DNA of 64,000 nt. Source: Fuscovulum ytuae (GTDB lineage Bacteria > Pseudomonadota > Alphaproteobacteria > Rhodobacterales > Rhodobacteraceae). Made by a program: the position numbers and the translations under genes. The notes under the pieces were generated by a model that was not told the origin of the DNA, did no database searches, and saw only the letters and a list, made by a program, of their open reading frames with translations. Shown in pieces: positions 28,988 through 45,341 of the stretch (the stretch's first letter is position 1; each line of letters begins with the position of its first letter). Location of the stretch: positions 186,001 through 250,000 of the forward strand of contig NZ_CP124535.1 of NCBI RefSeq assembly GCF_029953595.1, written 5' to 3'.

Positions 28988-29543
28988 GGCCCCCAAGGCA
29001 TGGTCTTGCATCTACCCGCCGCCATCAGAGTGCCGACGGGATCATTACCGCCCCGGTGTCGCGCGTCACTTGGACCATTTTGTGGTCACCCTGAGGTCAA
29101 TTCTGGCGCTTTCGTGCTGTTCTGGGCCGAATCGCGTAAAAGCTGACTTGCAATATTTCAATTCCACTGTAGGCAGAGTGTTGCGAAATGGGAAACAGTG
29201 GTCTGTGGTCAGAACTTGTGCGGATGTCCGGAATCCTCAAATTCAGCAAAAGGGGCTGCATGAGGAGCTACCTACAAAATCTTGTATGGTAAGGATTTTT
29301 CGTGATTGCCTATTTGCCACAGTTTCGCCGGATTCGCAGAAAGTGGGAAAAATGGGTTAGCGTTTTGTCCAAGCGCATGCCCTTGTAAATTAACAATTGT
29401 TACCAAGTGAGCGCGCAATGGCCAGCCTACCACCCCAAAGACGCGACGCCCGCTTCAACGCGGCGTCGGGTTCCAAGGTGAACGATGGGAAGTCTCTTCC
29501 CGCCATCGGACCTGCGCGAGAGGCAGGTGGAACCGGGAACTTG
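28988..29543. other. Divergent control region of the kinase operon and the AHL synthase
   Basis: About 550 bp, clearly AT-richer between 29140 and 29410 than the surrounding genes. It holds the perfect palindrome TAACAATTGTTA at 29391-29402. A frame fused to the synthase runs from 29397, but its first 49 codons read as low-complexity charged sequence, so I treat this as leader DNA. Confidence 0.5.
29391..29402. promoter_or_regulatory. Perfect 12-bp palindrome upstream of the AHL synthase
   Basis: TAACAATTGTTA, preceded by T, so that TTAA and TTAC flank CAATTG. It is close to, but not equal to, the CtrA half-site pair TTAA-N7-TTAA. It lies about 140 bp before the chosen start. Confidence 0.5.
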
Positions 29544-30131
29544 ATGCTGACGACAACACTCTCATTCCAGAACATGCACCAACATGGTGACCTGTTCGTG
29601 AATCTTCTGCGCGCAAGGCGTAACTCTTTCATCGTAAAGAACAATTGGCGCTTGCCCGAAGCCGAGGGCATGGAGTTCGACCAATACGATACGCCCGCCA
29701 GCCGCTGGATCGCCGTGCATGAGAATGGCGAAGTTCTGGCCGGCGTGCGTCTGACCCCGACGACGGCACGGGTGGGCATGTATACCTACATGATCCGTGA
29801 TGCGCAGCGCGGCATGCTCGAGTCCATCCCGTCGGACCTGATGGATTTCGAGGCCCCGGTGGACCCGAAAATCTGGGAAGCGTCGCGCATCTTCGTATCC
29901 AATGCCGTGCCCGCGCGGCTGCGCAAAAAGGTTCAAGGCGATCTGATGTACGAGATGATCCGCACTGCGCGATCCCTTGGGGCGCAGAAGATCATCGCTT
30001 TCGGCCCTGCGGTCTGGCCGCGCTGGATCGGGCGGCTTGGCCTGAGGGCCAAACCCGCCGGGCCGGTCATGGAGCTTGACGGCGTGCGGGTGCAGGTTGC
30101 TGTGATGGACCTTGACCCACGCCTGCATTAA
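29544..30131 (+). CDS. Acyl-homoserine-lactone synthase (LuxI family)
   Basis: This 195-aa protein carries the conserved LuxI residues in order: R and F in ARRNSF, W in NNWRLPEAEG, E/D/D in MEFDQYD, R in AGVRLTPT, and E/R in WEASRIFVS. It makes an acyl-HSL from S-adenosylmethionine and an acyl-ACP or acyl-CoA donor. There is no adjacent LuxR partner; instead it is surrounded by phosphorelay genes. Its end overlaps the convergent receiver/GGDEF gene by 65 bp. Start: ATG 29544; in-frame ATG 29418 and TTG 29397 are alternatives. Confidence 0.88.
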   Translation: MLTTTLSFQNMHQHGDLFVNLLRARRNSFIVKNNWRLPEAEGMEFDQYDTPASRWIAVHENGEVLAGVRLTPTTARVGMYTYMIRDAQRGMLESIPSDLMDFEAPVDPKIWEASRIFVSNAVPARLRKKVQGDLMYEMIRTARSLGAQKIIAFGPAVWPRWIGRLGLRAKPAGPVMELDGVRVQVAVMDLDPRLH

Positions 30132-31173: not shown

Positions 31174-31574
31174 GCTGCAACCAGGTGCCTAGGGCGTCCG
31201 CAGGTTGTCACCTACACTCAATCCGCGCGGTCGGACTTCCGCACGGCACAGCAACAGCACTGGCATTACTGAACCCCTTCTCTTCGGGCAAATCATGTCC
31301 AGAGCGGGGCAGAAATCCGGCGTTTTGACCGAAAGGATGGGGAATCTTCGGGGCAGGGGGCATATTGTTTCGTTTAAGCTGACGATGAAGCGTTCAGGGC
31401 ACGTGGGCGCGCGCGGCCTTTCTCTGGACGCAAGACGGGTGGGCCGTCCCGTGCGGGCAGGCTATTCGGGATGGCGTGAAGCTGCGTCAAATTATTTCAT
31501 CAAGGGAAAATAATTTGACGTGGATTGCGCGCGAGGATTAGCCTTCTGGCAACAAACCACAAAAGACGACTGAC
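31174..31574. other. Divergent control region upstream of tmm
   Basis: 400 bp between the receiver/GGDEF gene and tmm. The right half contains the perfect inverted repeat at 31485-31520. No gene is apparent; an open frame at 31205-31513 has no coding character. Confidence 0.5.
31485..31520. promoter_or_regulatory. 13-bp perfect inverted repeat upstream of tmm
   Basis: CGTCAAATTATTT (31485-31497), 10-bp spacer, AAATAATTTGACG (31508-31520). The centres of the arms are 23 bp apart, about two helical turns, as in dimer operators. It is 66 bp before the tmm start. It could also be read as an RNA hairpin or as a member of the AT-rich hairpin family seen elsewhere in the window. Confidence 0.65.
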
Positions 31575-31586
31575 ATGGAGGGTGAC

Positions 31587-32930
31587 GTGAAGAAACGTGT
31601 TGCGGTGATCGGCGCAGGGCCATCGGGGCTTGCGCAGCTGAGGGCTTTCCAATCCGCCAAGGCGAAGGGTGCCGATATCCCCGAAGTCGTCTGTTTTGAA
31701 AAGCAATCGAACTGGGGCGGGCTCTGGAACTATACGTGGCGCACCGGGCTGGATGAAAACGGCGAGCCGGTCCATTGTTCGATGTATCGCTATCTGTGGT
31801 CCAATGGGCCTAAGGAAGGCCTTGAGTTCGCCGACTATTCCTTTGAGGAACATTTCGGAAAGCAGATCGCCAGCTATCCGCCGCGCGCCGTTCTGTTCGA
31901 CTATATCGAGGGCCGGGTGAAGAAGGCGGGGGTGCGCGACTGGATCCGCTTTTCCACCACGATCCGCATGGTGAAGTATCACGAAGCAACGGGAACCTTC
32001 ACCGTCACCGCGCATGATCTGAAGGCGGATCGGATGTATGACGAGGAATTCGATCATGTGATTGTCGCCTCGGGCCATTTCTCGGTGCCGAACGTTCCGG
32101 AATATCCGGGTTTCGACAAGTTCAACGGGCGTGTCCTGCATGCCCATGATTTCCGCGATGCGCGGGAATTCACGGGCAAGGACCTGCTGATCATGGGCAC
32201 GTCCTATTCGGCCGAGGATGTCGGGTCGCAATGCTGGAAATACGGGGCAAAGTCGATCACCAGCACCTATCGCCGCGACCCCATGGGCTTTAACTGGCCC
32301 GCGAATTGGGAGGAAAAGCCGGGTCTGGTGCGGGTGGATGAGAATACTGCCTATTTCGGCGATGGCAGCAGCAAGAAGATCGACGCAATCATCCTTTGCA
32401 CGGGCTACAAGCACCATTTCCCCTTCCTGCCCGATGATCTGCGGCTGAAAACGGCGAACCGGCTTGCAACTGCGGACCTCTACAAGGGTGTGGCGTGGGT
32501 GCATAACCCCAAGCTGTTCTATCTGGGCATGCAGGACCAGTGGTTCACCTTCAACATGTTCGATGCGCAGGCTTGGTGGGTGCGGGATGCGATCATGGGG
32601 CGCATCGCCATTCCGTCGGACAAGGCGGTGCTTCTAAAGGATGTCGAAAACCGGGTCGCAGGCGAGGATGCGGGGCAGGATGCCCATGACGCCATCCATT
32701 ACCAAGGCGATTATGTGAAGGAGCTGATTGCCGAGACGGATTATCCGTCCTTTGACGTGGATGGGGCCTGCGAGGCCTTCTTCGAGTGGAAGGACCATAA
32801 GAAGAAAGACATCATGTCCTTCCGCGACAATGCCTATAAATCGGTGATTACCGGCACGATGGCCCCGATCCACCATACGCCATGGAAGGACGCGCTGGAG
32901 GATTCGATGGAAAGCTATCTGAAGAACTGA
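31587..32930 (+). CDS. tmm: Trimethylamine monooxygenase (flavin-containing)
   Basis: This 447-aa flavin monooxygenase oxidises trimethylamine to TMAO with NADPH and O2. It shows FAD motif [37 protein letters not shown], the FMO fingerprint [16 protein letters not shown] motif [13 protein letters not shown] and [12 protein letters not shown], all as in characterised roseobacter Tmm. Start: GGAGGG lies just before the GTG at 31587, giving VKKRVAVIG, which matches the known N-terminus; the ATG at 31575 has no ribosome site. It heads the methylated-amine block and ends at a terminator. Confidence 0.95.
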
Positions 32931-32953
32931 CCATCCCTCACGCGCATGAATCA

Positions 32954-32990
32954 ACGGCTCCGGTCCTGTACCGGGGCCGTTTGTCTTTTT
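32954..32990 (+). terminator. Intrinsic terminator of tmm
   Basis: ACGGCTCCGG/CCGGGGCCGT (one G-U pair) with a 7-nt loop, followed by TTGTCTTTTT. Confidence 0.85.
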
Positions 32991-33078
32991 GCAGTCGCCC
33001 CCATTCTGCCGAAAAATTGTGCAATTTCGACGCGCATGTGCCGTTTACGACACTTAATTCGGCCCGCAATTCGCGGTT

Positions 33079-33096
33079 GGGGAAATTTTTTTCGCC
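33079..33096. promoter_or_regulatory. A-tract/T-tract motif upstream of amt
   Basis: GGGGAAATTTTTTTCGCC lies about 100 bp before amt. Closely similar sequence occurs before the APC permease (34871-34888) and before dmmD (37053-37068). An imperfect palindrome, CGAAAAATTGTGCAATTTCG, occurs nearby at about 33011-33030. Confidence 0.45.
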
Positions 33097-33198
33097 TTGG
33101 GTGAATTTCTGGCGCGGCGTCACGCCCCATCCATGGTCTACTTTTCGAACAAGCCGCCTTGGCGACGATCAGGGCGGCACCGACAACAGGGGAAATCG

Positions 33199-34584
33199 AT
33201 GGAAGAACAAGTTGCAGCTTTGGCGGCCGAACTTGCCGCCCTTAAGGATGCCACGGCCGGATTGAACCGGACGACGGCAGAAACCTTCTACTACCTAACC
33301 ATTCCGCTGATGGTGCTGATCCACGCGGGCTTCCTGTCTTATGAGATGGGGGCCTCGCGCGCGAAAAACGCGCTGGCGTCGGGGATCAAGAACATCCTCG
33401 CCTTCGCCTTCATCATCCCGACCTTCTACTATGCGGGCTGGTTCATCTATTGGGCCTTCCCCACCGGGTTTTCGATGTCGGCGGGTCCTGCGGGGATCTC
33501 TGGCCTTGAATATGCCATCGCGGCGGCAAGTCCGGTTGGGTCGGTGATGGGGCCCAGTCTGGCCGATAGCGCGACGGGCGTCTTCTTTGGGGCCTTTGCG
33601 ATGTTCGCTGCAACCACGGCATCCATCATGTCGGGCAGCCTGATCGAGCGTATCCAGATCGTGGGCTTTACCATTCTGGCCATTGCGCTGGGCAGCTTTG
33701 TCTGGATTCTTGGCGCGGCCTGGGGTTGGCATGCGGATGGCTGGTTGGTCACGAGCCTTGGTTACCACGATTTCGGCGCATCCGGCGTGGTGCACGCCAT
33801 TGCAGGCTTCTTCACGTTGGGCGTCCTGATCAACCTTGGCGCGCGAATCGGGAAGTTCAATCCCGATGGTACGGCCAATTCGATCCCAGGCCATTCGATG
33901 CCGGCAACGCTTGTGGGCCTGATGCTGATCATCGCGGGGTTCTGGGGCTTTCTTATGGCCTGCGTCATCTTCCCGGGTGAACCGTGGTCGTGGGGAATCG
34001 GCATCTTTGCCAATATCTACGGCACGCCGGTTACGCTTTCGGCACTCACCTTCAACATCCTGATGGGCTTTGCCGGTGGCGCGATTGCGGCATGGGCGAT
34101 GACCCGCGATCCGTTCTGGATGATGTCAGGGGCGCTCGGCGGCATCATCTCGGTGGCGGCGGGGCTTGATCTTTACTGGCCGCCGATGGCCTTTGTCATC
34201 GCTATGATCGGCGGGGTGATCATGCCGCTCGCTGCGGGTGTTGTCGAAAAGATGCGCATTGACGATGCCGTGGGGGCCGTTGCCCTGCACGGCGTGGTCG
34301 GCCTTTGGGGCGTGGTCGCGGTGGGGATCTTCGCGTCGGGCTATCCGGCCCTGACGGCGGAAGGCGCGCCGGCCATCACGCTTTACGGGCAGATCGTCGG
34401 TGCTGTCGTGATGGCGGTTCTGGGCTTTGTTCCGGGCTATGTCATCTCGCTTCTGCTCAAGCAAATGGGGCTCTTGCGCGTCCCGGCAGAGTCCGAGGTG
34501 ATGGGCCTTGATAAGGTCAAGGTGCCTGCGCAGGCCTATCCCGAATTCCTGACGGGGCCTGCCCCCACCACTCCGGCCGAATGA
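33199..34584 (+). CDS. amt: Ammonium transporter (Amt family)
   Basis: This 461-aa inner-membrane protein has about 11 helices. Amt motifs include GHSMPATLVGLMLIIAGFWGF, DDAVGAVALHGVVGLWGVVAVGIFA and the twin His positions (VVHAIAG and ALHGV). It begins with a short charged helix (MEEQVAALAAELAALKDATAGL) not usual in AmtB. No glnK is adjacent; it is followed instead by a 54-aa membrane protein. In this block it likely recovers ammonium from methylamine breakdown, or may carry methylammonium. AGGGGA fixes the ATG at 33199. Confidence 0.93.
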   Translation: MEEQVAALAAELAALKDATAGLNRTTAETFYYLTIPLMVLIHAGFLSYEMGASRAKNALASGIKNILAFAFIIPTFYYAGWFIYWAFPTGFSMSAGPAGISGLEYAIAAASPVGSVMGPSLADSATGVFFGAFAMFAATTASIMSGSLIERIQIVGFTILAIALGSFVWILGAAWGWHADGWLVTSLGYHDFGASGVVHAIAGFFTLGVLINLGARIGKFNPDGTANSIPGHSMPATLVGLMLIIAGFWGFLMACVIFPGEPWSWGIGIFANIYGTPVTLSALTFNILMGFAGGAIAAWAMTRDPFWMMSGALGGIISVAAGLDLYWPPMAFVIAMIGGVIMPLAAGVVEKMRIDDAVGAVALHGVVGLWGVVAVGIFASGYPALTAEGAPAITLYGQIVGAVVMAVLGFVPGYVISLLLKQMGLLRVPAESEVMGLDKVKVPAQAYPEFLTGPAPTTPAE

Positions 34585-34606
34585 AACGCGGAAAGGACAA
34601 AGAACC

Positions 34607-34771
34607 ATGCTGATCGGAACGAACATCACTGACTGGTCCGCCGTCGAAGGCACCTATTACGCAGGTGTCGGGTCAGAGGGCATCTGGCTTGCGATTTCCA
34701 TCGTGCTTTGCATCGGGGCCCTGGTCCTTGGGGCGCGGCATGAGAAGGCGGCCTATCGGAAGGTGAAATAG
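34607..34771 (+). CDS. 54-aa single-helix membrane protein downstream of amt
   Basis: The peptide starts MLIGTNITDWSAVEGTYYAG, then has one membrane helix (IWLAISIVLCIGALVLGA) and a basic tail (RHEKAAYRKVK). AAAGGA sits 10 nt upstream, the gene begins 22 bp after amt, and a strong terminator follows, so it is cotranscribed with amt. No family is known to me; a small accessory subunit of the transporter is the simplest inference. Confidence 0.75.
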   Translation: MLIGTNITDWSAVEGTYYAGVGSEGIWLAISIVLCIGALVLGARHEKAAYRKVK

Positions 34772-34797
34772 ACCACAAAGCCCTTGAGAAAAAAGAC

Positions 34798-34827
34798 AAA
34801 GGCCCGGGCATCTCGCCCGGGCCTTTT
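34798..34827 (+). terminator. Intrinsic terminator after amt and the 54-aa gene
   Basis: AAAGGCCCGGGC/GCCCGGGCCTTT forms a perfect 12-bp stem with loop ATCTC and ends in TTTT. Confidence 0.92.
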
Positions 34828-34870
34828 CGCATGGCCAAAGGTGCGCATGTCATGCTGCGGCGCAGCTAGA

Positions 34871-34888
34871 GGAAAAATTTTTTCGCAC
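34871..34888. promoter_or_regulatory. A-tract/T-tract motif upstream of the APC permease
   Basis: GGAAAAATTTTTTCGCAC, nearly the same as the sequences at 33079-33096 (amt) and 37053-37068 (dmmD). It lies about 235 bp before the permease start. Confidence 0.45.
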
Positions 34889-35123
34889 AGATAAAAATAT
34901 CTCGCCTTGTGCATAAGAGCGTGCTTTGTTGCGTGCACCGGACTCGATCGCCTTGGCAGAGCAAACCTGCGCGACGGGGCCCGTCAGGAGGCAGGGCCAT
35001 AGGCTGCCCTGCAAGCCCAAAGCCGCCCCGACGCGGAAGCCGGGACGGACAAGCAAAAGCCGGAGCGCGGGCAGGGTAAACCCCAAGCAACCGGCGCCAA
35101 CAGGGAACGAGGGAGTTAACTAA

Positions 35124-36887
35124 ATGTCGTCAACTGCAAGTAACGGCGAGCTGCAACGCGCGCTGGACTGGAAGGGTGCCTTCTGGGTTGCTGCGGGGGT
35201 GCCCCCGCTGGTTCTGTTCTCCATCGGCGGGATCGCCGGCGTGGCGGGGCAGGCGGCCTTTGCCGTCTGGATCTTGTCCATGTGCATGGGTTTTCTGCAA
35301 TCCTTCACCTATGCCGAAATGGCGGGGATGTTCGGCAACAAGTCGGGCGGGGCGTCGATCTATGGCGCGACCGCATGGCTGCGCTATTCCAAGTCGATCG
35401 CGCCGCTCTCGGTCTGGTGCAACTGGTTTGCGTGGTCGCCGGTGCTGTCACTCGGCTGTGCGATTGCGGCAGGCTACATCCTGAACGCGCTGTTCCCAAT
35501 CCCGCATGCCGATAGCCAAGTTGTGGTCGACTGGGTGGCGGCGAACCTTGCCAGCTATACCGAGGCGACTCAGGCGGTGATCGACTACATGGCTGCCAAT
35601 GCCGGGACTTCGGCCGCCGATGCCATCACGGCAGTGGCCACGGCGGATGCGGTCAGCGCGCTGACCCCCACGATCCGTGTCTGGGAAGCCTATGCCCTGT
35701 CCATCCCCGGCCTTGGGACCCTGCATTTCAATTCGACCTTCGTGATCGGCGCGATCCTGATGTTCATCATCTTCGCCATCCAGCATCGCGGCATCGCCTC
35801 GACGGCCAGCGCGCAGAAGGTGCTGGCGGTCATCGTTCTGATCCCGCTTTTCCTTGTGGGCATCGTGCCGATCCTGACCGGATCGATCGACATGATGAAT
35901 GTAAGCGAGATCGTCCCCCCGTCGGTCGCCTATGGCGGCGATGTCGGTGCATGGGATATCGGCGGTTGGACGCTGTTCCTTGGCGCGATGTATATCGCGG
36001 CATGGTCGACCTACGGGTTTGAAACGGCGGTCTGCTACACGGCGGAAATGAAGAACCCGGCGACGGACACGTTCAAGGCCATCTTCTTTTCGGGCCTTCT
36101 CTGCATCGTCTTCTTCTTCATGATCCCCTTCTCGTTCCAAGGCGTCTTCGGGGCGGCGGGGATGCTTGATCCCGGCATCGTGGATGGCACGGGCGTGGGG
36201 GCGGCGCTGTCGTCGATGGTCAGCTCGTCCAATGTGATCGTGCAGATCTTCATCATCCTGATGATCATGGCGCTGTTTCTGGCGATCATGACGGCGATGG
36301 CAGGGTCTTCGCGCACGCTCTATCAGGGGTCGCGTGACGGCTGGCTGCCGAAATACCTGTCCCATGTGAACGAACATGGTGCGCCGACCAATGCGATGTG
36401 GACGGATCTGGGGTTCAACCTGTTCCTTCTGGCGCTGGCCTCGGATGCGGGGGGGTATTTCTACGTTCTGGCCATCTCGAACGTGGGCTATCTGACCTTC
36501 AACTTCCTGAACCTGAATGCAGGCTGGATCCACCGGATCGATTCGGGCCATGTGCATCGGCCTTGGAAGGCCCCGACCTTCCTGATCGGGCTGAACACGG
36601 TTCTGGCTTTCGTCAACGCGCTGTTCCTTGGGGCTGGGGCGAAGGTCTGGGGCTATGAGAATGCGCTCTGGTCGGGTGTGGTCTTTGCCGCGCTGATCCT
36701 GCCGGTATTCTGGTTCCGCCATTATCTGCAAGACGGCGGCAAGTTCCCGCCCGAAGCGTTGGAGGATCTGGGCCTGTCGAATGGCGATCTGGGCGAAAGA
36801 AAAGCCGGTTTCCTGCCCTATCTTGCGCTGATCGGCGGGGCGGCGGTTGTCCTTTGGGCGAACTGGTTCTTCGTCCTGCCGGGCTGA
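35124..36887 (+). CDS. APC-family amino acid/amine permease
   Basis: This 587-aa integral membrane protein has about 12 helices and APC-superfamily features: the N-terminal SIGGIAGVAGQAAFAVW helix, YAEMAGMFGNKSGGASIYG and the later GYFYVLAISNVGYLTFNFLN. An insertion of ~60 residues between helices 3 and 4 (PHADSQVVVDWVAANLAS...) is longer than usual. It lies between amt and dmmD, so an N-methylated amine or quaternary ammonium substrate is inferred; no substrate residue can be assigned. It ends at its own terminator. Confidence 0.85.
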   Translation: MSSTASNGELQRALDWKGAFWVAAGVPPLVLFSIGGIAGVAGQAAFAVWILSMCMGFLQSFTYAEMAGMFGNKSGGASIYGATAWLRYSKSIAPLSVWCNWFAWSPVLSLGCAIAAGYILNALFPIPHADSQVVVDWVAANLASYTEATQAVIDYMAANAGTSAADAITAVATADAVSALTPTIRVWEAYALSIPGLGTLHFNSTFVIGAILMFIIFAIQHRGIASTASAQKVLAVIVLIPLFLVGIVPILTGSIDMMNVSEIVPPSVAYGGDVGAWDIGGWTLFLGAMYIAAWSTYGFETAVCYTAEMKNPATDTFKAIFFSGLLCIVFFFMIPFSFQGVFGAAGMLDPGIVDGTGVGAALSSMVSSSNVIVQIFIILMIMALFLAIMTAMAGSSRTLYQGSRDGWLPKYLSHVNEHGAPTNAMWTDLGFNLFLLALASDAGGYFYVLAISNVGYLTFNFLNLNAGWIHRIDSGHVHRPWKAPTFLIGLNTVLAFVNALFLGAGAKVWGYENALWSGVVFAALILPVFWFRHYLQDGGKFPPEALEDLGLSNGDLGERKAGFLPYLALIGGAAVVLWANWFFVLPG

Positions 36888-36911
36888 TCGGGGCGATTGT
36901 AGAAGCAGGGA

Positions 36912-36938
36912 AGGGCGGTCCAATGGGCCGCCCTTTTT
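36912..36938 (+). terminator. Intrinsic terminator of the permease gene
   Basis: AGGGCGG...CCGCCCT with inner pairs around AAT and a following TTTTT. Confidence 0.8.
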
Positions 36939-37034
36939 CATGCGGGGAATCAGGCGGGCCATGGGCCGGTTCCCAACTTGCCCGTTCGGCAGGCGGGGCG
37001 TGGCGGTTTTTGGCCCCTCAGGACGGTTTCATAT

Positions 37035-37068
37035 GGAAAACTTTCCCTGACAGGAAAACTTTTTGCAC
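37035..37068. promoter_or_regulatory. Direct repeat upstream of dmmD
   Basis: GGAAAACTTT occurs at 37035-37044 and again at 37053-37062, 18 bp start to start; the second copy continues TTGCAC. Direct repeats of this kind are bound by AraC/GlxA-type regulators, and one is encoded at the end of this operon (40991-42010). It lies about 70-105 bp before dmmD. Confidence 0.5.
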
Positions 37069-37139
37069 ATGAAGGTTGATTTCGTGGGGGGATGGTTGGA
37101 GAGTATGGCCAACAAACAAGTCCATCGGGAGGGACGGAA

Positions 37140-38276
37140 ATGACGAATTCGTGGCGCTTTTCCACGCTGGGTGATCGGCACCGCGCGCTGGGATCGAACC
37201 TTGAAGATTGGAGCGGGATGGGAACCGCTTGGTCCTATGACGGGGACCCGGATGCCGAATACATGGCGATCCGCACCAAGGCCGGGCTGATGGATGTGTC
37301 AGGCCTGAAGAAGGTCCATATCACGGGGCCTGCCGCCAGCCATGTGATTGAACGCGCCACCACTCGGAACATGGAAAAGCTGATGCCGGGCCGGTCGGTC
37401 TATGCCTGCATGCTGAACGATGCGGGCAAGTTCATCGAGGATTGCGTCATCTATCGCCTTGCCCCCAACAGCTTCATGGTGGTGCACGGGTCGGGACAGG
37501 GGCATGAGCAGCTGACCATGGCCGCGACGGGACGCGATGTTTCGGTCCGCTTCGACGACAACACCCATGACCTGTCGCTGCAGGGCCCGCTGGCGGTGGA
37601 CTATCTGGAAAAGCACGTCCCCGGCATCCGGCAGCTTCCCTATTTCTCTCAGATGCAGACCAGTCTGTTCGGCAAGCCCGCCATGATCTCGCGCACCGGT
37701 TACACCGGTGAGCGGGGGTATGAGCTGTTCGTGCGCGGTCAGGATGCGCCGATGATCTGGGATCGCATTCTGGACGAAGGCAAATCGATGGGGATCATCC
37801 CCTGCAGGTTCACCACGCTCGACCTCCTGCGCACTGAGAGCTATCTCTTGTTCTTCCCCTTCGACAATTCCGAGATGTATCCGTTCGAGGATGAAGGGCC
37901 GGGCGATACGCTGTGGGAGCTGGGTCTCGACTTCACCGTATCCCCTGGCAAGGTGGGCTTCCGTGGCGCGGAAGAGCATTACCGCCTGAAGGGCAAGGAA
38001 CGGTTCAAGATTTGGGGCCTGAAGATGGAAGGCACCAACGTGCCGGGCAATGGCGCGCCGATCTATCGGGATGGCAAGAAGGTGGGGGTTGTGACGCAGG
38101 CGATGTATTCGCCGCTGAACAAGCACAACATCGCCATCGCGCGTATTCCGGTGGATTGCGCCAATAACGAAACGAAACTGGTGGTGAACTGCGCCACGCA
38201 TGGCGAGATTGCCGCCGTGACGCATTCGATGCCCTTCTATGACGTGGAAAAGAAGCGGCGTACCGCCAAGGACTGA
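37140..38276 (+). CDS. dmmD: GcvT-like tetrahydrofolate-binding protein of the dimethylamine cluster (DmmD)
   Basis: This 378-aa aminomethyltransferase-fold protein shows ADGLMD-like AGLMDVSGLKKVHITGP, LNDAGKFIEDCVIYRL, SRTGYTGERGYELFV and the C-terminal barrel with LKMEGTNVPGNGAPIY. Proteins of this fold transfer one-carbon units onto tetrahydrofolate, so it probably takes the formaldehyde released on demethylation. In Ruegeria pomeroyi a dmmD gene next to dmmABC is needed for growth on methylated amines; identity with it is inferred from position. GGGAGG fixes the ATG at 37140. Confidence 0.78.
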   Translation: MTNSWRFSTLGDRHRALGSNLEDWSGMGTAWSYDGDPDAEYMAIRTKAGLMDVSGLKKVHITGPAASHVIERATTRNMEKLMPGRSVYACMLNDAGKFIEDCVIYRLAPNSFMVVHGSGQGHEQLTMAATGRDVSVRFDDNTHDLSLQGPLAVDYLEKHVPGIRQLPYFSQMQTSLFGKPAMISRTGYTGERGYELFVRGQDAPMIWDRILDEGKSMGIIPCRFTTLDLLRTESYLLFFPFDNSEMYPFEDEGPGDTLWELGLDFTVSPGKVGFRGAEEHYRLKGKERFKIWGLKMEGTNVPGNGAPIYRDGKKVGVVTQAMYSPLNKHNIAIARIPVDCANNETKLVVNCATHGEIAAVTHSMPFYDVEKKRRTAKD

Positions 38277-38285
38277 ACCAGGACA

Positions 38286-38315
38286 GGGCACGCCGATCCG
38301 ATGGCGTGCCCTTTT
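38286..38315 (+). terminator. Hairpin with T-tract between dmmD and dmmA
   Basis: GGGCACGCC/GGCGTGCCC is a perfect 9-bp stem with an 8-nt loop, followed by TTTT. It sits inside what looks like one operon, 10 bp after dmmD and 34 bp before dmmA, so it may end part of the transcripts. Confidence 0.75.
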
Positions 38316-38348
38316 CCACAACCGGACCCAACCGGAACTGACAGGACC

Positions 38349-38969
38349 ATGAGCCAGACCGTTTTCGAAAAATCGATCCGCAGCCGCCCTGTCTATGGTG
38401 TGCTGCAACCGCGTGCGGGCACGGCGCATCTTTGCGTGGCCGATGGTGAAGGGGCGGGCGCGATCCGTGATCTTTTTGCCAAGGCCGGGGAAGCTGCCGC
38501 CGCGATGCTGGAAAAGACGCACATCATTTATGTGCCTGGTGCGAATGGCACGGATGAATTCGCGAGTCTTGAGGCACTCGGGGCCGCGCAATGCCACCGA
38601 TCGCCGTCCTTCTGGGCGGCGGAACCGCGGCTGCGCAAGGTGCTGGCCGATGCCCATATGGGCCTGCAGGTCTATCTGGCGGGAACCGAGACGCTGATCG
38701 GTCTGGCGCAGCGCGATGTGATGGAGGCAGGGCTTCCCCATGACGCGGTGCAGACCGAACATCGCGGGTCGCTGGCCCGCCGCGTGCAATGCGTGCATTG
38801 CAAGGGCATCACCGAAAACGTGACGACCGATCCCTTCGTCTGTTCCCATTGCGGGCTGAACCTGTTCGTCCGCGACCACTACTCCCGCCGCCTTGCGGCC
38901 TTTCAGGGGGTGAATATCGACGCCGAGGATCCCGGACAGGTTCCCCCGGCGGTGGAGCGTTTCAAATGA
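38349..38969 (+). CDS. dmmA: Dimethylamine monooxygenase subunit DmmA
   Basis: This 206-aa protein ends in a zinc-ribbon-like region, CVHCKGITENV...FVCSHCGLNLFVRDHYSRRL (two CxxC pairs), as in the DmmA family. The N-terminal ~150 residues contain HIIYVPGANGTDEF and a soluble alpha/beta core. DmmA, DmmB and DmmC together oxidise dimethylamine to methylamine and formaldehyde. Its stop overlaps the dmmB start (ATGA), so translation is coupled. Confidence 0.9.
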   Translation: MSQTVFEKSIRSRPVYGVLQPRAGTAHLCVADGEGAGAIRDLFAKAGEAAAAMLEKTHIIYVPGANGTDEFASLEALGAAQCHRSPSFWAAEPRLRKVLADAHMGLQVYLAGTETLIGLAQRDVMEAGLPHDAVQTEHRGSLARRVQCVHCKGITENVTTDPFVCSHCGLNLFVRDHYSRRLAAFQGVNIDAEDPGQVPPAVERFK

Positions 38970-39931
38970 GCGTCGGGGCCCCCAGACTGGATGTTGTCGT
39001 GACCGAGGTGGTGGAGGTGAACGCCCTCATCAAACGGTTCCGTTTCGAACGTGCGGATGGCGAAGACATGCCGCATTTCTCTGGCGGGTCGCATGTGGTG
39101 GTCGAGATGGACGACCATGGCACGCGCCGGATGAACCCCTATTCGCTGATGTCCGATCCTTCAGATACAAAGGGATACGAAATCTCGGTCCGAAGGGATG
39201 AGGTTGGGCGGGGCGGATCGCTTTACATGCACCGTCATGTCGTGCCGGGGATGCGGATGCAAATCGGCCATCCGGTGAACCTGTTCCCGCCGGATGCGCG
39301 GGCGCGAAAGCACCTGTTCCTTGCAGGCGGCATCGGGATCACGCCCTTCATGTCGATGATGGCCCAGCTTGCGCCAATGGGGCAGCGGTTCGAACTCCAC
39401 TATTCCGTGCGCTCCGAGGCGCTGGGGGCCTATGCGGACCGCTTACGCGACGCCTATCACGAACGCGTCCATATCTATGTCGATGACAAGGGGCAGGCGA
39501 TTGACCTGAAGACCCTGCTGTCTACCCAACCCCTTGGCACGCATCTTTATGTCTGCGGGCCGAAGGGGATGATCGAATGGGTAAAAACCACGGCGGCGGG
39601 CCTGGGCTGGCCCGCCAATACCGTGCATTCCGAGGAATTCCTCGCCCCGCCCGTGGGCCAGCCCTTCACGGTTGAACTGGCGGCATCGGGCAAGATGGTG
39701 CAGGTCGGCGCCGCGCAGTCGATCCTTGAGGCGATAGAGGCCGCGGGTGTGGATGCCCCCTATCTTTGCCGTGGCGGGGCCTGCGGACAGTGCGAGACGA
39801 ATGTCATCCGCTGCGACGGACATATCCACCACCACGACCACTGGCTTTCGGATGAAGAAAAAGCTAGCGGCACCAAGATCATGCCATGCGTGTCGCGGTT
39901 CGAGGGCAAATCCCTCGTCCTTGACCGCTAA
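38966..39931 (+). CDS. dmmB: Dimethylamine monooxygenase reductase subunit DmmB
   Basis: This 321-aa phthalate-dioxygenase-reductase-type protein has a flavin domain with RRMNPYSLMSDP, an NAD domain with FLAGGIGITPFMSMM and VCGPKGMI, and a C-terminal 2Fe-2S ferredoxin domain CRGGACGQCETNVI...IMPCVSR (C-x4-C-x2-C plus a distal Cys). It would pass electrons from NAD(P)H to the DmmC haem centre. It is coupled to dmmA by a 4-bp overlap. Confidence 0.93.
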   Translation: MSVGAPRLDVVVTEVVEVNALIKRFRFERADGEDMPHFSGGSHVVVEMDDHGTRRMNPYSLMSDPSDTKGYEISVRRDEVGRGGSLYMHRHVVPGMRMQIGHPVNLFPPDARARKHLFLAGGIGITPFMSMMAQLAPMGQRFELHYSVRSEALGAYADRLRDAYHERVHIYVDDKGQAIDLKTLLSTQPLGTHLYVCGPKGMIEWVKTTAAGLGWPANTVHSEEFLAPPVGQPFTVELAASGKMVQVGAAQSILEAIEAAGVDAPYLCRGGACGQCETNVIRCDGHIHHHDHWLSDEEKASGTKIMPCVSRFEGKSLVLDR

Positions 39932-39942
39932 GGGAGGACGCG

Positions 39943-40986
39943 ATGGGATTCGAGTTCAACAACGAGACATTCCGCAACGATTTCACCTTCAAGAACTCGG
40001 AGCGGGCGATCAAACGCTTCCCATTCCCCTTTGACCGGGACGACTACATGTATTCGGTCAATATGGAACCGCATGTGCCGGGCCGTCCCGGATCGGTGTT
40101 CGAACACGCCTTCGACGTGGATGAACACTACCTTGCTGAAATGCGCGACCGGGAACTGGTCCTGAAGGAAGACCCGCTGCGCTGCCAATCCCTGCCGCAT
40201 ATGGAATTGGCGGGCTGGGACCTGCTTGAACTGATCATGGAAAGCAAGGCGCGGGATTACCCGCATTGGTTTGAACTGCACAAGACCGGCAAGCGTTGGA
40301 CTTGGATCAACAAGCCGATGCAGATCGAACAGACCTTCACCTTCCTTGATCCCTCGACGCTGCCTTATGGCCCGATGGAATACATCACCCGCCAAGCGCA
40401 GGGTGATTTCACCTTGCAGGATCAGCGCGACGAAAACCTCTGGATCGAAGCCGGGATGGTGACGACGCAGGCCGACTGGTCCTTGGATTTCGACATCGGG
40501 ATGGGCTTTCATGAATGGCACGCCCCCGTGCCGCTTGCGCATGAAAAGGGGGTTTTCGACCGCGCGCTGAAATTCCTGCTGAAACTTCAGCACGGCGCAC
40601 CGGTGCGGCGGTTCAATTGGACCCATACGGTGGACCCTCTGCTGGATACGAGCCCGGAGACCTATCCCAAATGGGGCCCGACCCGGACCGAGATCACGAT
40701 GGACAACCTTGGCCAGCGCATGCATCTGCGGGTGGAATTGCAGACCCTGTGGCGGCTGCCCCGGTCCAATGCCATCGCCTTCCCGATCCGCTGCTATCTG
40801 ATCAAATATGATGAGTTGGTGACCATCCCGAAATGGGCCCGCCGCTTGCATCGGGTGGTGCGCGACATCCATCCCGATCTGGCCGCCTATAAGGGGTTCC
40901 TCAGGAACCGCGATCTGATGACGGCATGGCTTGCGCAATATGACGATGGCGCGCCCACCTCGCCCGGTTGGTGGCCAGAGGACTGA
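39943..40986 (+). CDS. dmmC: Dimethylamine monooxygenase catalytic subunit DmmC
   Basis: This 347-aa protein belongs to the haem-dependent oxidative N-demethylase family (DUF3445). Recognisable blocks are FPFPFDRDDYMYSVNMEP, FTFLDPSTLPYGPMEYI, IGMGFHEWHAPVPLAHEKG, RRFNWTHTVDPLLD and the C-terminal LHRVVRDIHPDLAAYKGF. It is the oxygenase that removes a methyl group from dimethylamine. It starts 11 bp after dmmB. Confidence 0.92.
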   Translation: MGFEFNNETFRNDFTFKNSERAIKRFPFPFDRDDYMYSVNMEPHVPGRPGSVFEHAFDVDEHYLAEMRDRELVLKEDPLRCQSLPHMELAGWDLLELIMESKARDYPHWFELHKTGKRWTWINKPMQIEQTFTFLDPSTLPYGPMEYITRQAQGDFTLQDQRDENLWIEAGMVTTQADWSLDFDIGMGFHEWHAPVPLAHEKGVFDRALKFLLKLQHGAPVRRFNWTHTVDPLLDTSPETYPKWGPTRTEITMDNLGQRMHLRVELQTLWRLPRSNAIAFPIRCYLIKYDELVTIPKWARRLHRVVRDIHPDLAAYKGFLRNRDLMTAWLAQYDDGAPTSPGWWPED

Positions 40987-40990
40987 TCGC

Positions 40991-42010
40991 GTGGCAAAGC
41001 CCGTCTCCGAGGCAGGCAAGCCCACGGTGCTGGGCTTTCTGCTCTTTCCCGGTTTCCCGATGGCCTGCCTTACCTCGGCCATCGAACCTTTGCGCGCTGC
41101 GAATGAAATCGTGGGGCGACGCGAATTTTCGTGGAAACTTCTGGCCGAAGAGGCAGGCCCGGTGCGGTCATCCGCCGAGGTGAAGTTCGACCCCGACGCC
41201 ACGCTGACCGAGGCCGGGGAACTCGACTACCTCTTCTTCCTCTCCATGCCGCAATCGCAATTCGTTCACCCGAAACGGTCAAACGCGCAGGTGCGCTGGA
41301 TGGATCGGTCGGGCGTGGTGCTGGGCGGGTTTTCCGGCGGCATCTTTCCCCTGGTGCGGTCCGGGGTGATGGGCGGTCATGTCTGTTCCGTCCATTGGTG
41401 CTATGACGCTGCCTTCAAGGCGGAATTTGCGGATATCGCCGTCAGCCAATCGGTCATCATCCGTGACAGGCGGCGGCATACGGCCAGCGGGGCAGGGGCG
41501 GTGTTCGACCTGATGCTGCGGATGATCGAAGAAAAGCTGGGCCGCGACACGATGACCGAGGTGGCTTGCTGGTTCCAGCATCCCTTCGTGCGCGCCGATG
41601 ATGCGACCCAGAAGGTCCCAGTTCAAAAACGGGGCGGAACAGATGACATGCTGCCCGACATGATCCGGCAGGCGATCCGCGTCTTTGCCGATCATATCGA
41701 AGACCCGGTCCAGATTTCCGACGTGGCCGAGGCGCTGGGGATATCCGAGCGCCATCTTGAACGCAGTTTCAAACAAGCGACGGGGCAGTCACCGCTGAAA
41801 TACTATCGCCTGCTGCGGCTGAAGAAAGCCCGCCAGAAGGTGCTTTATTCCACCCAGACGATCACCGAGATCGCGCTTTCGGTGGGCTATGCCAGTTCCA
41901 CGCCGATGACCCGCCACTATGCCGAAGCCTTCGGCGTAAACCCGGCGGATGAACGGCGGCGGTTGGTGGGCCTGCGCGGTCTTGCAGGTGCCCTGCCACC
42001 TTCGGAATGA
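40991..42010 (+). CDS. GlxA/AraC-family transcriptional regulator
   Basis: The 339-aa protein starts at the GTG at 40991, 4 bp after the dmmC stop. It has an N-terminal DJ-1/PfpI-like domain (VLGFLLFPGFPMACLTSAIEPLRAAN, GGFSGGIFPLVRSG, VCSVHWCYD). A C-terminal AraC HTH pair follows, ISDVAEALGISERHLERSFKQATGQSP and ITEIALSVGYASSTPMTRHY. This architecture is that of GbdR/CdhR-type activators of methylated-amine catabolism. It likely controls the dmm genes; the direct repeat at 37035-37062 is a candidate site. Confidence 0.9.
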   Translation: MAKPVSEAGKPTVLGFLLFPGFPMACLTSAIEPLRAANEIVGRREFSWKLLAEEAGPVRSSAEVKFDPDATLTEAGELDYLFFLSMPQSQFVHPKRSNAQVRWMDRSGVVLGGFSGGIFPLVRSGVMGGHVCSVHWCYDAAFKAEFADIAVSQSVIIRDRRRHTASGAGAVFDLMLRMIEEKLGRDTMTEVACWFQHPFVRADDATQKVPVQKRGGTDDMLPDMIRQAIRVFADHIEDPVQISDVAEALGISERHLERSFKQATGQSPLKYYRLLRLKKARQKVLYSTQTITEIALSVGYASSTPMTRHYAEAFGVNPADERRRLVGLRGLAGALPPSE

Positions 42011-42013
42011 TCC

Positions 42014-42856
42014 TCAGACCAGACCCAGCGTCGCAATCCCCGCAAAGACAAGCGCCACACCGCCCCATTGCGCCGCTCGCATCGGTTCATGCAGGAAGCG
42101 CCACGCCAGAAGGATTGTCACGATCCCGAATATGGATGAGGCGACCGAGGCATATTCCGCATTCTCCATCCCTCCCGCCAGTGTAACGGCGCTTATCGCA
42201 CCGACATCAAGGAACCCCATCAACAAAAGCGCGGGCCAGATCCGGCCAAGACCACCCGTCCCGGGCCGCCGCTGTATCAGCCAAACCAGCGCGATGCACA
42301 GCGCGGTAATGCGGGTGATCGCGGCCACAGGCATATGCGCGCCGGTTTCGGCCGACCATTGCGCCAGCCCGAACGTCACAGCGAAGGAGACAGAGGCCAG
42401 CGCCGCCCATCCCACTGCGGCGATGCGGCTGCCCGATGACGTGCCACCTTCGCCCCGCGCGACGATGGCCACGCCCGCCACAACGGCCAGAACGGCCAAC
42501 CAGACCAGCGGCCCGGCCTCTTCTCCCCGCGCGATGGCGAATAGGACGGACAAAACGGGGTAGGATCCGCAGATCGGGGCCACCAGCGACACAGGGCCGA
42601 TGGTGAAGGCGCGATAAAGCGCAATATTGGCGCTGACCGTTCCCACACCTGCGGCCAATGCCAGCGCCGCCTGCTGCGGGCCAATGGCCCACCAGCCGCC
42701 GACGATCACCGCAATCGGGATCAGCGGGATCAGGCCAAAGATCGTGACGACGGTGAAGATCACCGCCACATCGGCTTTGCCCCCCACGCGGCGGATGGTA
42801 AAATCGTGCAGTCCCCAAAACAGGGCGGCGAGAAGTCCAAGGGAAAGTGCAATCAC
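42014..42856 (-). CDS. EamA/DMT-family transporter
   Basis: This 280-aa protein has ten hydrophobic helices in two EamA repeats (first: ALSLGLLAALFWGLHDF; second begins at about residue 150, VGWAALASVSFAVTFGLAQW). It probably exports a small metabolite. It begins with a GTG (42856) after GAGGCA and is convergent with the GlxA regulator, 3 bp apart. It may share a divergent promoter region with tdm. Confidence 0.85.
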   Translation of the reverse strand: MIALSLGLLAALFWGLHDFTIRRVGGKADVAVIFTVVTIFGLIPLIPIAVIVGGWWAIGPQQAALALAAGVGTVSANIALYRAFTIGPVSLVAPICGSYPVLSVLFAIARGEEAGPLVWLAVLAVVAGVAIVARGEGGTSSGSRIAAVGWAALASVSFAVTFGLAQWSAETGAHMPVAAITRITALCIALVWLIQRRPGTGGLGRIWPALLLMGFLDVGAISAVTLAGGMENAEYASVASSIFGIVTILLAWRFLHEPMRAAQWGGVALVFAGIATLGLV

Positions 42857-42965
42857 GGTGCTGCCTCGTTTTTCCCATCATGGCGCTTGCCCCAAAGGGA
42901 GACGCCGGATATTCTTTTTGTGAAACAGTTTTTACGCTGATGCAACTCTGGCGGGGGGAGTGGCC

Positions 42966-45341
42966 ATGCTCGATCTTTATCCCAAAGTCATCCCCGGCCC
43001 GCCGCGCCCAAGCCGAATCCTCACCGCGACCTCGGCTCTGCCGCAGTCGGGTAAGGAACGCTACGAAGTGGCGGGGAATGGCGCAATCCTGATCCGCATC
43101 GGCGCGGGGGATCGTGTCACCATTGCCAATCCCGAAGGCGGGCAGCGGGCGGAACTTGTGGCCGCAGACGGGCAGGGGCGCATCGATGCGGGCCTTCTGG
43201 GGGTTGCGGCCAATTCCGACGCGGGCGGGTTGAAGGCGCTTCTGTCAGCAGGGCCACGGCTGGGGTCCGGCATGGGCGGGCTGCGGTTGGGTCTGGAACG
43301 GCGGGGGATTGATCTGTCCAAGGCCGGGGCCCTTGCGATCTTTGGCGGCGAAAGCCCGGCGGGCAGCGAGGAAACCTTCACCGTCACCCGCGATGGCGTG
43401 CTTATCATTGCCGCGCCGGGCGGCGAGATGGAGCCTGACGGGCAGGATACCGCCACGCCCCTCGTTGTGCAGGTGCAACGTGCCTCCCTGTTGACCGTCC
43501 GGCAGTTCGATCTGCCCGATCCGCTGGCCGATCCGGTGCTGGACCTGCGGGTGAAATCAGCCACGGCACGGGCCTATTTCGTGAAGGCGGGCGACTATAT
43601 CCAGATCATCGACGTGGATGGCCGCCAATGCACCGATTTTCAGGCCTTCGCCGCGCGCAAACTCGACAAGGGGATCGAACATGCGCTGGATGTGACCACC
43701 TCGCGCACCCTGATGGGCCATGCCTATTCGATGCCGGGGCTGCATTCGAAATATTACGATCAGGACATGCTGTCGCTTCTAGAGGTGGTGCAGGATACCG
43801 TCGGTCGCCATGACGCCTTCGCCATGGCCTGCGCGGCCAAGTATTACGATGATATCGGCTATCCCGGCCATGCCAACTGCTCCGACAATTTCAACGGTGC
43901 GCTGGCGGAATTCAACATCTCGGGCCGACCCGGCTGGATGGCAGTGAACCTGTTTTTCAATACGGGCATCGACGCGCATGGCGTGCTGTATTCCGATGAG
44001 CCGTGGTCGCGCCCCGGCGACTATGTCCTTTTCCGCGCGCTGACCGATCTGGTTTGCGTGTCCTCGGCCTGCCCGGATGACACCAGCCCGGCCAATGGCT
44101 GGTATCTTAGCGATATCCATGTCCGCACCTATTCCGGCGCGGAAAAGTTCAGCCGCGCCATCGCATGGCGCGCCACCCCAGATTCGGAGCCGAAGATGAC
44201 CAAGGACACCGCCTTTGCCGAAAGGACCGGGGCGCTGACCCGGCATGTGGTGGAATACAAGGGCTATTGGCTGCCGCAGGTCTATTCATCGAACGGCGCG
44301 ATCGAGGAATATTGGGCCTGCCGGGAAAAGGCCGTCGTGCTGGACCTGTCGCCCCTGCGCAAGTTTGAGGTGACGGGACCGGATGCCGAGGCCTTGATGC
44401 AATGGACCCTGACGCGGGATGTCAAAAAGCTGAGCGTGGGGCAGGTCGTCTATTCCGCCATGTGCTATGAACATGGCGGGATGATCGATGACGGCACCCT
44501 GTTCCGGCTGGGGCGTGACAATTTCCGCTGGATCGGCGGCGATGATTACGGCGGCATCTGGCTGCGCGAACAGGCCGAGAAGTTGGGCCTGAAGGTGATG
44601 GTGCGGTCCTCGACGGATCAGCTGCATAACCTTGCCGTGCAAGGGCCGAACAGCCGCAAGATCATGGAGCGGATGATCTGGACCGCGCCGCATCAGCCTT
44701 CGATCGCCGAACTGGGCTGGTTCAGGCTGACCGTGGGCCGTCTGGGCGGGCCGGAGGGCGCGCCGGTGGTGGTGTCGCGCACGGGCTATACGGGCGAGCT
44801 TGGGTTTGAGGTGTTCTGCCACCCGAAGGACGGCAACGCCGTCTATGACGCCGTCTGGGAACATGGCCGCGACCTTGGGCTGAAACCGATGGGCCTTGCC
44901 GCGCTGGATATGGTGCGGATCGAGGCGGGGCTGATCTTCGCCGGCTATGATTTCAGCGACCAGACCGACCCGTTCGAAGCAGGCATCGGCTTTACCGTGC
45001 CGTTGAAGTCGAAAACCGATGATTTCATCGGGCGCGAGGCGCTGATCCGGCGCAAGGAAAACCCGCGCTGGAAATTCGTGGGGCTGGAGATCGACGCAAA
45101 TGTCGATGTGGGCCATGGCGATTGCATCCATATGGGCCGCGCGCAGGTGGGGGAGGTGACCTCGTCCATGCGGTCGCCCCTTCTGGGCAAAAATATCGCG
45201 CTGGCGCGGGTCGATGTCGCCCATGCCGAAGTGGGCACCGCGCTGGAGGTGGGCAAGCTGGACGGCCATCAGAAACGCCTGCCTGCGGTGATCGTGCCCC
45301 TGTCGCATTACGACCCGAAGAAGACGCGTCCGCAAAGCTAA
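42966..45341 (+). CDS. tdm: Trimethylamine-N-oxide demethylase (Tdm)
   Basis: This 791-aa fusion has an N-terminal DUF1989-like region and a C-terminal GcvT-like tetrahydrofolate domain, the known layout of TMAO demethylase. The N-terminal half contains three candidate metal-ligand Cys (RQCTDFQAF, GHANCSDNFNGAL, SACPDDTSPANGWYLSD). The C-terminal half shows VVLDLSPLRKFEVTGPDA, SRTGYTGELGFEVFCHP and VGEVTSSMRSPLLGKNIALA. It converts TMAO to dimethylamine and formaldehyde, passing the carbon to folate. GGGGGAG 5 nt before the ATG at 42966 sets the start. Confidence 0.87.
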   Translation: MLDLYPKVIPGPPRPSRILTATSALPQSGKERYEVAGNGAILIRIGAGDRVTIANPEGGQRAELVAADGQGRIDAGLLGVAANSDAGGLKALLSAGPRLGSGMGGLRLGLERRGIDLSKAGALAIFGGESPAGSEETFTVTRDGVLIIAAPGGEMEPDGQDTATPLVVQVQRASLLTVRQFDLPDPLADPVLDLRVKSATARAYFVKAGDYIQIIDVDGRQCTDFQAFAARKLDKGIEHALDVTTSRTLMGHAYSMPGLHSKYYDQDMLSLLEVVQDTVGRHDAFAMACAAKYYDDIGYPGHANCSDNFNGALAEFNISGRPGWMAVNLFFNTGIDAHGVLYSDEPWSRPGDYVLFRALTDLVCVSSACPDDTSPANGWYLSDIHVRTYSGAEKFSRAIAWRATPDSEPKMTKDTAFAERTGALTRHVVEYKGYWLPQVYSSNGAIEEYWACREKAVVLDLSPLRKFEVTGPDAEALMQWTLTRDVKKLSVGQVVYSAMCYEHGGMIDDGTLFRLGRDNFRWIGGDDYGGIWLREQAEKLGLKVMVRSSTDQLHNLAVQGPNSRKIMERMIWTAPHQPSIAELGWFRLTVGRLGGPEGAPVVVSRTGYTGELGFEVFCHPKDGNAVYDAVWEHGRDLGLKPMGLAALDMVRIEAGLIFAGYDFSDQTDPFEAGIGFTVPLKSKTDDFIGREALIRRKENPRWKFVGLEIDANVDVGHGDCIHMGRAQVGEVTSSMRSPLLGKNIALARVDVAHAEVGTALEVGKLDGHQKRLPAVIVPLSHYDPKKTRPQS

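Follow-up and report, generated by a model that had tools for sequence, protein, structure and literature searches.

The question raised by this locus of Fuscovulum ytuae, a relative of Rhodobacter, was whether two transport genes in a cluster for methylated-amine breakdown, an amino acid-polyamine-organocation (APC)-type permease and an EamA transporter, have new roles in the uptake or release of methylated amines, as an earlier reading of the letters alone (the sequence-only reading) had proposed. The window, which is the whole stretch of 64,000 nucleotides analysed, corresponded to bases 186001-250000 of a 3.9-Mb contig (C1) in a genome of 4.19 Mb and three contigs. The cluster was assigned, with a probability of about 0.82, to a canonical aerobic trimethylamine (TMA) module, with the rest of the route and a second importer of trimethylamine N-oxide (TMAO) encoded elsewhere in the genome. 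The pathway and the importer family are known. The interest lies in the EamA transporter next to tdm and in a small membrane protein next to amt, for both of which the linkage was observed and the function is predicted.

The tmm, amt, permease, dmmDABC, AraC-type regulator and tdm genes were found to lie on the plus strand between 31575 and 45341, and the sole minus-strand gene of this block was the EamA gene, placed between the regulator and tdm. The inventory, order and direction given in the sequence-only reading were borne out by NCBIfam and Pfam profiles (Table 1). The gene set for the oxidation of TMA to monomethylamine (MMA) was found to be complete, with Tmm, Tdm and DmmABC all recognised by these profiles in the window. 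Tmm converts TMA to TMAO, Tdm converts TMAO to dimethylamine (DMA) and a formaldehyde unit, and DmmDABC converts DMA to MMA. A second tmm match in the genome consisted of one 37-bit fragment and nothing else. The permease, used as a query on named genomes, gave at least 595 loci, the best 80 of which were kept for comparison; the closest permease among the matches listed was found in Rhodobacter kunshanensis (96% identity). The gene order tmm-amt-permease-dmmDABC-regulator-EamA-tdm-purQ, with EamA reversed, was also present in loci L017, L018 and L027, and the arrangement is therefore not a matter of chance. Loci L019 and L020 were found to contain the same order without an amt-type gene. A family sample of 296 genomes, drawn from a larger group and almost all of different genera, contained Tdm above its cut-off in 69 genomes, TmoP above its cut-off in 12, TmoX in 41 at 60% identity or more (in 59 when the limit was E <= 1e-80), and an EamA relative in 38 (E <= 1e-20).

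The proposal of new transport roles had been argued from the absence of the TmoXWV importer and of the methylamine enzymes. Searches of the genome with glutamine synthetase, OpuAC and soxB confirmed that no GmaS, TmoX or MgdA was present in the window, and candidates for all three were observed outside it. The argument from absence therefore fails, since tmoXWV and gmaS-mgs-mgd were found on the same contig at about 1.51 Mb and about 2.41 Mb, respectively, the tmm-tdm block being at about 0.22 Mb. The genome contained five OpuAC matches, the four main ones of which were compared with solved structures. The TmoX ortholog (C1:1510229-1511188) scored 542 bits (phmmer) with 78.6% identity to TmoX of Ruegeria pomeroyi (4XZ6), and 7/7 of the TMAO pocket residues described in PMC8918994 were conserved, including the aromatic pocket and Glu131. 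The adjoining genes were of the betaine/choline importer type, with an ATPase at 327 bits (TIGR01186, cut-off 326.6) and a permease at 355 bits (TIGR03416), just under the cut-off of 363. A second OpuAC protein (L099) showed 40% identity to TmoX and retained 4/7 pocket residues. The set, at about 1.507-1.511 Mb of C1, resembles the TmoXWV ATP-binding cassette importer (4XZ6; PMC8918994) in its TmoX ortholog, ATPase and permease genes, and differs in lying outside the window with TorS/TorR-like sensor genes on its flank. These neighbours (L107:6332-9878, C1 about 1.511-1.515 Mb) were a TorS-like hybrid kinase of 600 bits, below the cut-off of 676.5, and a TorR-like regulator of 254 bits, below the cut-off of 275. 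Their likeness suggests a TMAO-sensing control of the importer; a literature search for TorS and tmoX together found nothing that joined them.

The search with glutamine synthetase gave ten matches in the genome, one of which was of type III and a GmaS candidate (TIGR03105, 658 bits, cut-off 470). It adjoined MgsA-, MgsB- and MgsC-type genes, all on its own strand, as well as a second amt, and an mgdABCD-type operon started about 3 kb from the gmaS-mgs genes. The names of gmaS, mgsABC and mgdABCD rest on TIGR03105, domain make-up, gene order and the match to copies in other methylamine islands, mgdD being named by position alone (Pfam E 0.065). MgdA and MgdC were 79-94% and 62-80% identical to the island copies (best matches, 18 loci), a better match than that of the two other sarcosine-oxidase-type operons of this genome. 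These two were located in L115 and L116, and the one in L115 adjoined a glutamate dehydrogenase gene. The published methylamine clusters of R. pomeroyi DSS-3 and Methylocella silvestris likewise contain tmm, tdm, dmmDABC and amtB, with tmoP in the same legend (PMC5520151, Figure 1); here, in contrast, tmoXWV and gmaS-mgs-mgd lie far from the tmm-tdm block and tmoP is the importer within it.

On this gene content a route can be proposed, in which the activities of these copies and their co-regulation are predicted. Tmm would oxidise TMA to TMAO, and external TMAO would enter through the APC-type TmoP, with TmoXWV as a second importer. Tdm would turn TMAO into DMA and a formaldehyde unit, followed by the conversion of DMA to MMA by DmmDABC, and the MMA end of the route would be served by GmaS, MgsABC and MgdABCD. 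MMA or ammonium would be handled by Amt with a 54-residue membrane partner, and EamA, whose gene is separated from the divergent tdm by about 110 bases and is probably co-expressed with it, would release surplus DMA. It is a tentative and rather doubtful proposal that two unrecognised members of the pathway exist, namely a dedicated EamA amine transporter, which is encoded with Tdm from a shared promoter and releases the DMA that Dmm is too slow to use, and the 54-residue partner of a methylammonium-type Amt.

The linkage of EamA with tdm was found to be conserved. An EamA relative was present in at least 24 of the best 80 permease loci, a lower bound because many loci end early, and of the 14 window genes used as queries it was the next one to tdm in 24/24. 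The orientation was as in the window in 22/24, and the pair was inverted as a unit in the other two (L053, L057). Of the 38 family genomes with an EamA relative, 28 had it no further than 2 kb from tdm, in divergent orientation in 26 and on the same strand in 2. The suspicion raised earlier about this gene was strengthened by its conserved partnership with tdm, its substrate and direction being predicted. Among the 26 divergent pairs, Tdm was above its cut-off in 25 and below it in 1, and the matched parts were 169-348 bases apart. EamA was present in 32/69 Tdm-positive and 6/227 Tdm-negative genomes (Fisher p 7e-18, kinship among genomes ignored), and in 34/81 and 4/215, respectively, when lower-scoring full-length Tdm genes were counted. 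The divergent pair was also found where dmmD was 11-20 kb away or on another contig (G245, G111, G236), and was kept in several linked cases at only 36-39% identity to the window EamA. The importers in the 26 divergent cases were TmoX only in 13, TmoP only in 4, both in 3 and neither in 6 (TmoX at 49% identity or more). EamA presence tracks Tdm, not any TMAO importer, and a substitution of EamA or of the permease for TmoXWV was ruled out, because the genome encodes TmoXWV and the presence of EamA was independent of importer type.

The predicted structure of EamA (mean predicted local distance difference test score, pLDDT, 92) gave matches of the drug/metabolite transporter (DMT) fold in Foldseek. 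The best match by E-value was the choline importer LicB (7paf; E 7.7e-8, template-modelling (TM) score 0.81), which was also the best profile match by sequence, though weak (E 0.045). EamA shares the DMT fold with LicB and with 5i20 and differs from both in its sequence (17-18% identity) and in having tdm as its genomic partner. EamA probably moves a small amine and is expressed together with Tdm. The most likely job, although a tentative one, is the release of surplus DMA at the Tdm step, which is favoured because Tdm makes DMA and because a dmmD mutant of R. pomeroyi was reported to build up DMA in the medium (PMC5520151). Uptake of a methylated amine is the next option and an unlikely one. 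The following points weigh against this account. No EamA relative (E <= 1e-20) was found in 37/69 Tdm-positive genomes, and 10/38 relatives were not near tdm, and EamA is therefore not essential to the pathway. The structure 5i20, which we take to be YddG, matched the EamA model equally well by TM-score (0.84 against 0.81 for LicB), with no sequence match at E <= 1. DMA may also pass membranes without a carrier.

The alternative that survives best is that EamA carries something other than amines, amino acids and folate-related compounds being examples, or that its closeness to tdm is an inherited gene order without function. EamA transporters are numerous (61 domain matches in this genome) and diverse, and 4 of the 10 relatives away from tdm were in genomes without a tdm match in either score band, which keeps this alternative a serious one, though short of even odds. 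The survival of the divergent pair through inversion as a unit, at a distance from dmmD and at the low identities given above speaks against it. It is improbable that EamA, rather than exporting, imports a methylated amine (TMA, DMA, TMAO or choline) in the manner of LicB. The structural match and the weak sequence match to LicB agree with such a role, but 5i20 was as good a match by TM-score and EamA is linked to tdm, not to tmm or dmm. TmoX or TmoP was moreover present in 20/26 divergent cases, and EamA is therefore no replacement for the TMAO importers. If the release of DMA by EamA is true, the gene would be a genetic handle on the biological release of DMA to the environment, and if the link is confirmed, a candidate gene for bacterial DMA loss, which has been connected with marine aerosol formation (PMC5520151).

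The first helix of EamA was found to contain a W14, H17-D18 motif, which was considered as a mark of the tdm-linked group and ruled out, since 38/38 relatives contained it, both the 28 near tdm and the 10 elsewhere. An aspartate at this place was found in several EamA paralogs of the genome and the full HD pair in 1 of the 15 extracted (L151), a weak control in which the paralogs were chosen mechanically and some were plainly wrong-frame open reading frames (ORFs). Joint-term literature searches found nothing on EamA with TMAO demethylase or on EamA as a DMA exporter, and a search that combined LicB, choline and drug metabolite transporter gave no match.

The permease was found to match the curated TMAO permease family TmoP (NF053774) over model positions 1-519 of 520, and no other protein of the genome matched this model. 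By this profile it is a member of a known family, and a TMAO role is therefore not new for it; TMAO transport by this copy is predicted. Its part in methylated-amine transport, suspected in the sequence-only reading, thus held and most of the novelty did not. Of the two findings that, in that reading, would together remove the transport novelty, the first, a tmoXWV-gmaS set elsewhere in the genome, was made; for the second, an amino-acid substrate of the permease, no evidence emerged, and the substrate of the family is TMAO. TmoP was reportedly characterised in Methylocella silvestris BL2 by Zhu et al. in 2014, and the window permease resembles it in the family match above cut-off over the whole model and in its place beside tmm, dmm and tdm. 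One point against the assignment is the identity of just 54-55% to the short-form branch of TmoP. A general amino-acid permease that lies in the cluster by chance is very improbable: PF13520 (AA_permease_2) and the closest solved folds of the predicted model (mean pLDDT 84), which are amino-acid transporters of the LAT, BasC, AdiC and ApcT type, would suit it, but the score of 820 bits stands against at most 45 bits for all other models at E <= 0.001 in the NCBIfam scan, and 12/12 TmoP genomes of the family sample contained Tdm above its cut-off. Both tmoP (PMC5520151 and PMC4543880) and amtB (PMC5520151) are already named in published legends of dmm-type clusters.

The long insertion of the permease, earlier taken as unusual, was found to be ordinary for its branch. 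It comprised 54 residues at about 129-182, after the helix at residues 92-123, and formed three confident helices in the predicted model. The loop carrying it would be on the periplasmic side, given the usual APC topology. Four short-form relatives of 530-540 amino acids from three family genomes, to which the identity above refers, do not contain it, unlike the window protein of 587 amino acids. In an alignment (A2) built from 20 of the best 80 permease loci together with the window protein and the four short forms, 20/21 long forms (19 loci and the window) showed the complete insertion and the other, L053, had a part of it deleted, and a peculiarity of this genome was thereby ruled out. The permease length was 560-610 amino acids in 80/80 of the best loci and at least 574 in 78/80. 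Genome G092 (L189, L193) was found to contain a short-form tmoP, tmm, tmoXWV and tdm in one row, and both TMAO importers can thus share one cluster.

The amt gene was followed, after a gap of 22 bases, by the gene of a 54-residue membrane protein which had been overlooked earlier and for which no Pfam or NCBIfam family better than E 0.037 was found. A relative was present in 8 of the best 80 permease loci, all 8 with an amt of at least 71% identity, and in 38/296 family genomes, comprising 37/69 Tdm-positive and 1/227 other genomes. For 36 of the 37 relatives in other genomes, a same-strand amt match preceded the gene at a distance of 13-109 bases, and the remaining relative was at a contig end. 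The next recognised gene downstream was dmmD in 15/37. Amt and its partner are predicted, and probably serve, to handle MMA or ammonium; if true, the partner would be a small accessory subunit for the well studied Amt transporter family. A literature search on ammonium transporters with small membrane proteins and methylamine led to one paper, which concerned an archaeon. Behind the other amt of the genome, that of the mgs-gmaS-mgd cluster, a plus-strand ORF of 72 residues was found (L119:3650-3868, C1 about 2.4176 Mb); it contained a hydrophobic stretch, and its similarity to the 54-residue protein was weak (E 3e-4, probability 38.5%).

Table 1. Features of the tmm-tdm block, in window coordinates; the starts of tmm (ATG 31575), amt (ATG 33199), tdm (ATG 42966), dmmD, dmmA and dmmB were judged by eye.
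Feature	Coordinates	Strand	Basis
Perfect 13-base inverted repeat, operator candidate, about 55 bases before tmm	31485..31520 (arms 31485-31497, 31508-31520)		sequence inspection
tmm, trimethylamine monooxygenase	31575..32930	+	NCBIfam NF058570 834 bits, cut-off 675
amt, ammonium/methylammonium transporter family	33199..34584	+	PF00909 184 bits; TIGR00836 195 bits, below cut-off 343
54-residue membrane protein, one hydrophobic stretch	34607..34771	+	ORF between amt and permease
tmoP, APC-type TMAO permease (predicted), 587 amino acids	35124..36887	+	NF053774 820 bits, cut-off 690
dmmD, GcvT-like subunit of dimethylamine monooxygenase	37140..38276	+	PF01571 (GCV_T), PF08669
dmmA	38349..38969	+	NCBIfam NF041259 (DmmA family) 115 bits, cut-off 60
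dmmB, ferredoxin-reductase subunit	38966..39931	+	PF22290 (DmmA-like_N), PF00111, PF00175, PF00970
dmmC, haem-dependent oxidative demethylase alpha-like subunit	39943..40986	+	PF11927 (HODM_asu-like) 225 bits
AraC-family regulator, GlxA/GbdR type	40931..42010 (start approximate)	+	GbdR model 207 bits, below cut-off 480; AraC helix-turn-helix (Pfam)
EamA (DMT superfamily) transporter, divergent from tdm	42014..42856	-	PF00892 80.7 bits
Putative promoter region shared by the divergent EamA and tdm genes, about 110 bases	42857..42965		window and 20 relatives aligned
tdm, TMAO demethylase	42966..45341	+	NCBIfam NF053776 1217 bits, cut-off 1100

The regulator is, judged by gene position, possibly a relative of TmaR. 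TmaR is the AraC-type master regulator of R. pomeroyi (SPO1584), located beside mgd, and its main clade is delimited by more than 44% identity to SPO1584 (PMC13390433). The likeness consists in the AraC-type gene downstream of dmmDABC in the window and in the presence of the same regulator beside an mgdC-type gene in six relatives (L041, L044, L047, L051, L064, L065). A caution comes from four Paracoccus loci (L034, L038, L046, L075), in which another AraC relative, 29-32% identical to that of the window, was found beside mgdA.

No pattern close to the inverted repeat upstream of tmm was found in the best 80 permease loci. The EamA-tdm gap was found by eye to contain a promoter-like TTGnnn-N17-TATTCT, conserved in the window and in most of the 20 aligned relatives, followed by the presence of an AT-rich, GTTTTA-type stretch in the same relatives; the ATG of tdm at 42966 was also found in these 20. 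Outside the block, the ORF at 29397-30131 on the plus strand looked by eye like a LuxI-type autoinducer synthase.

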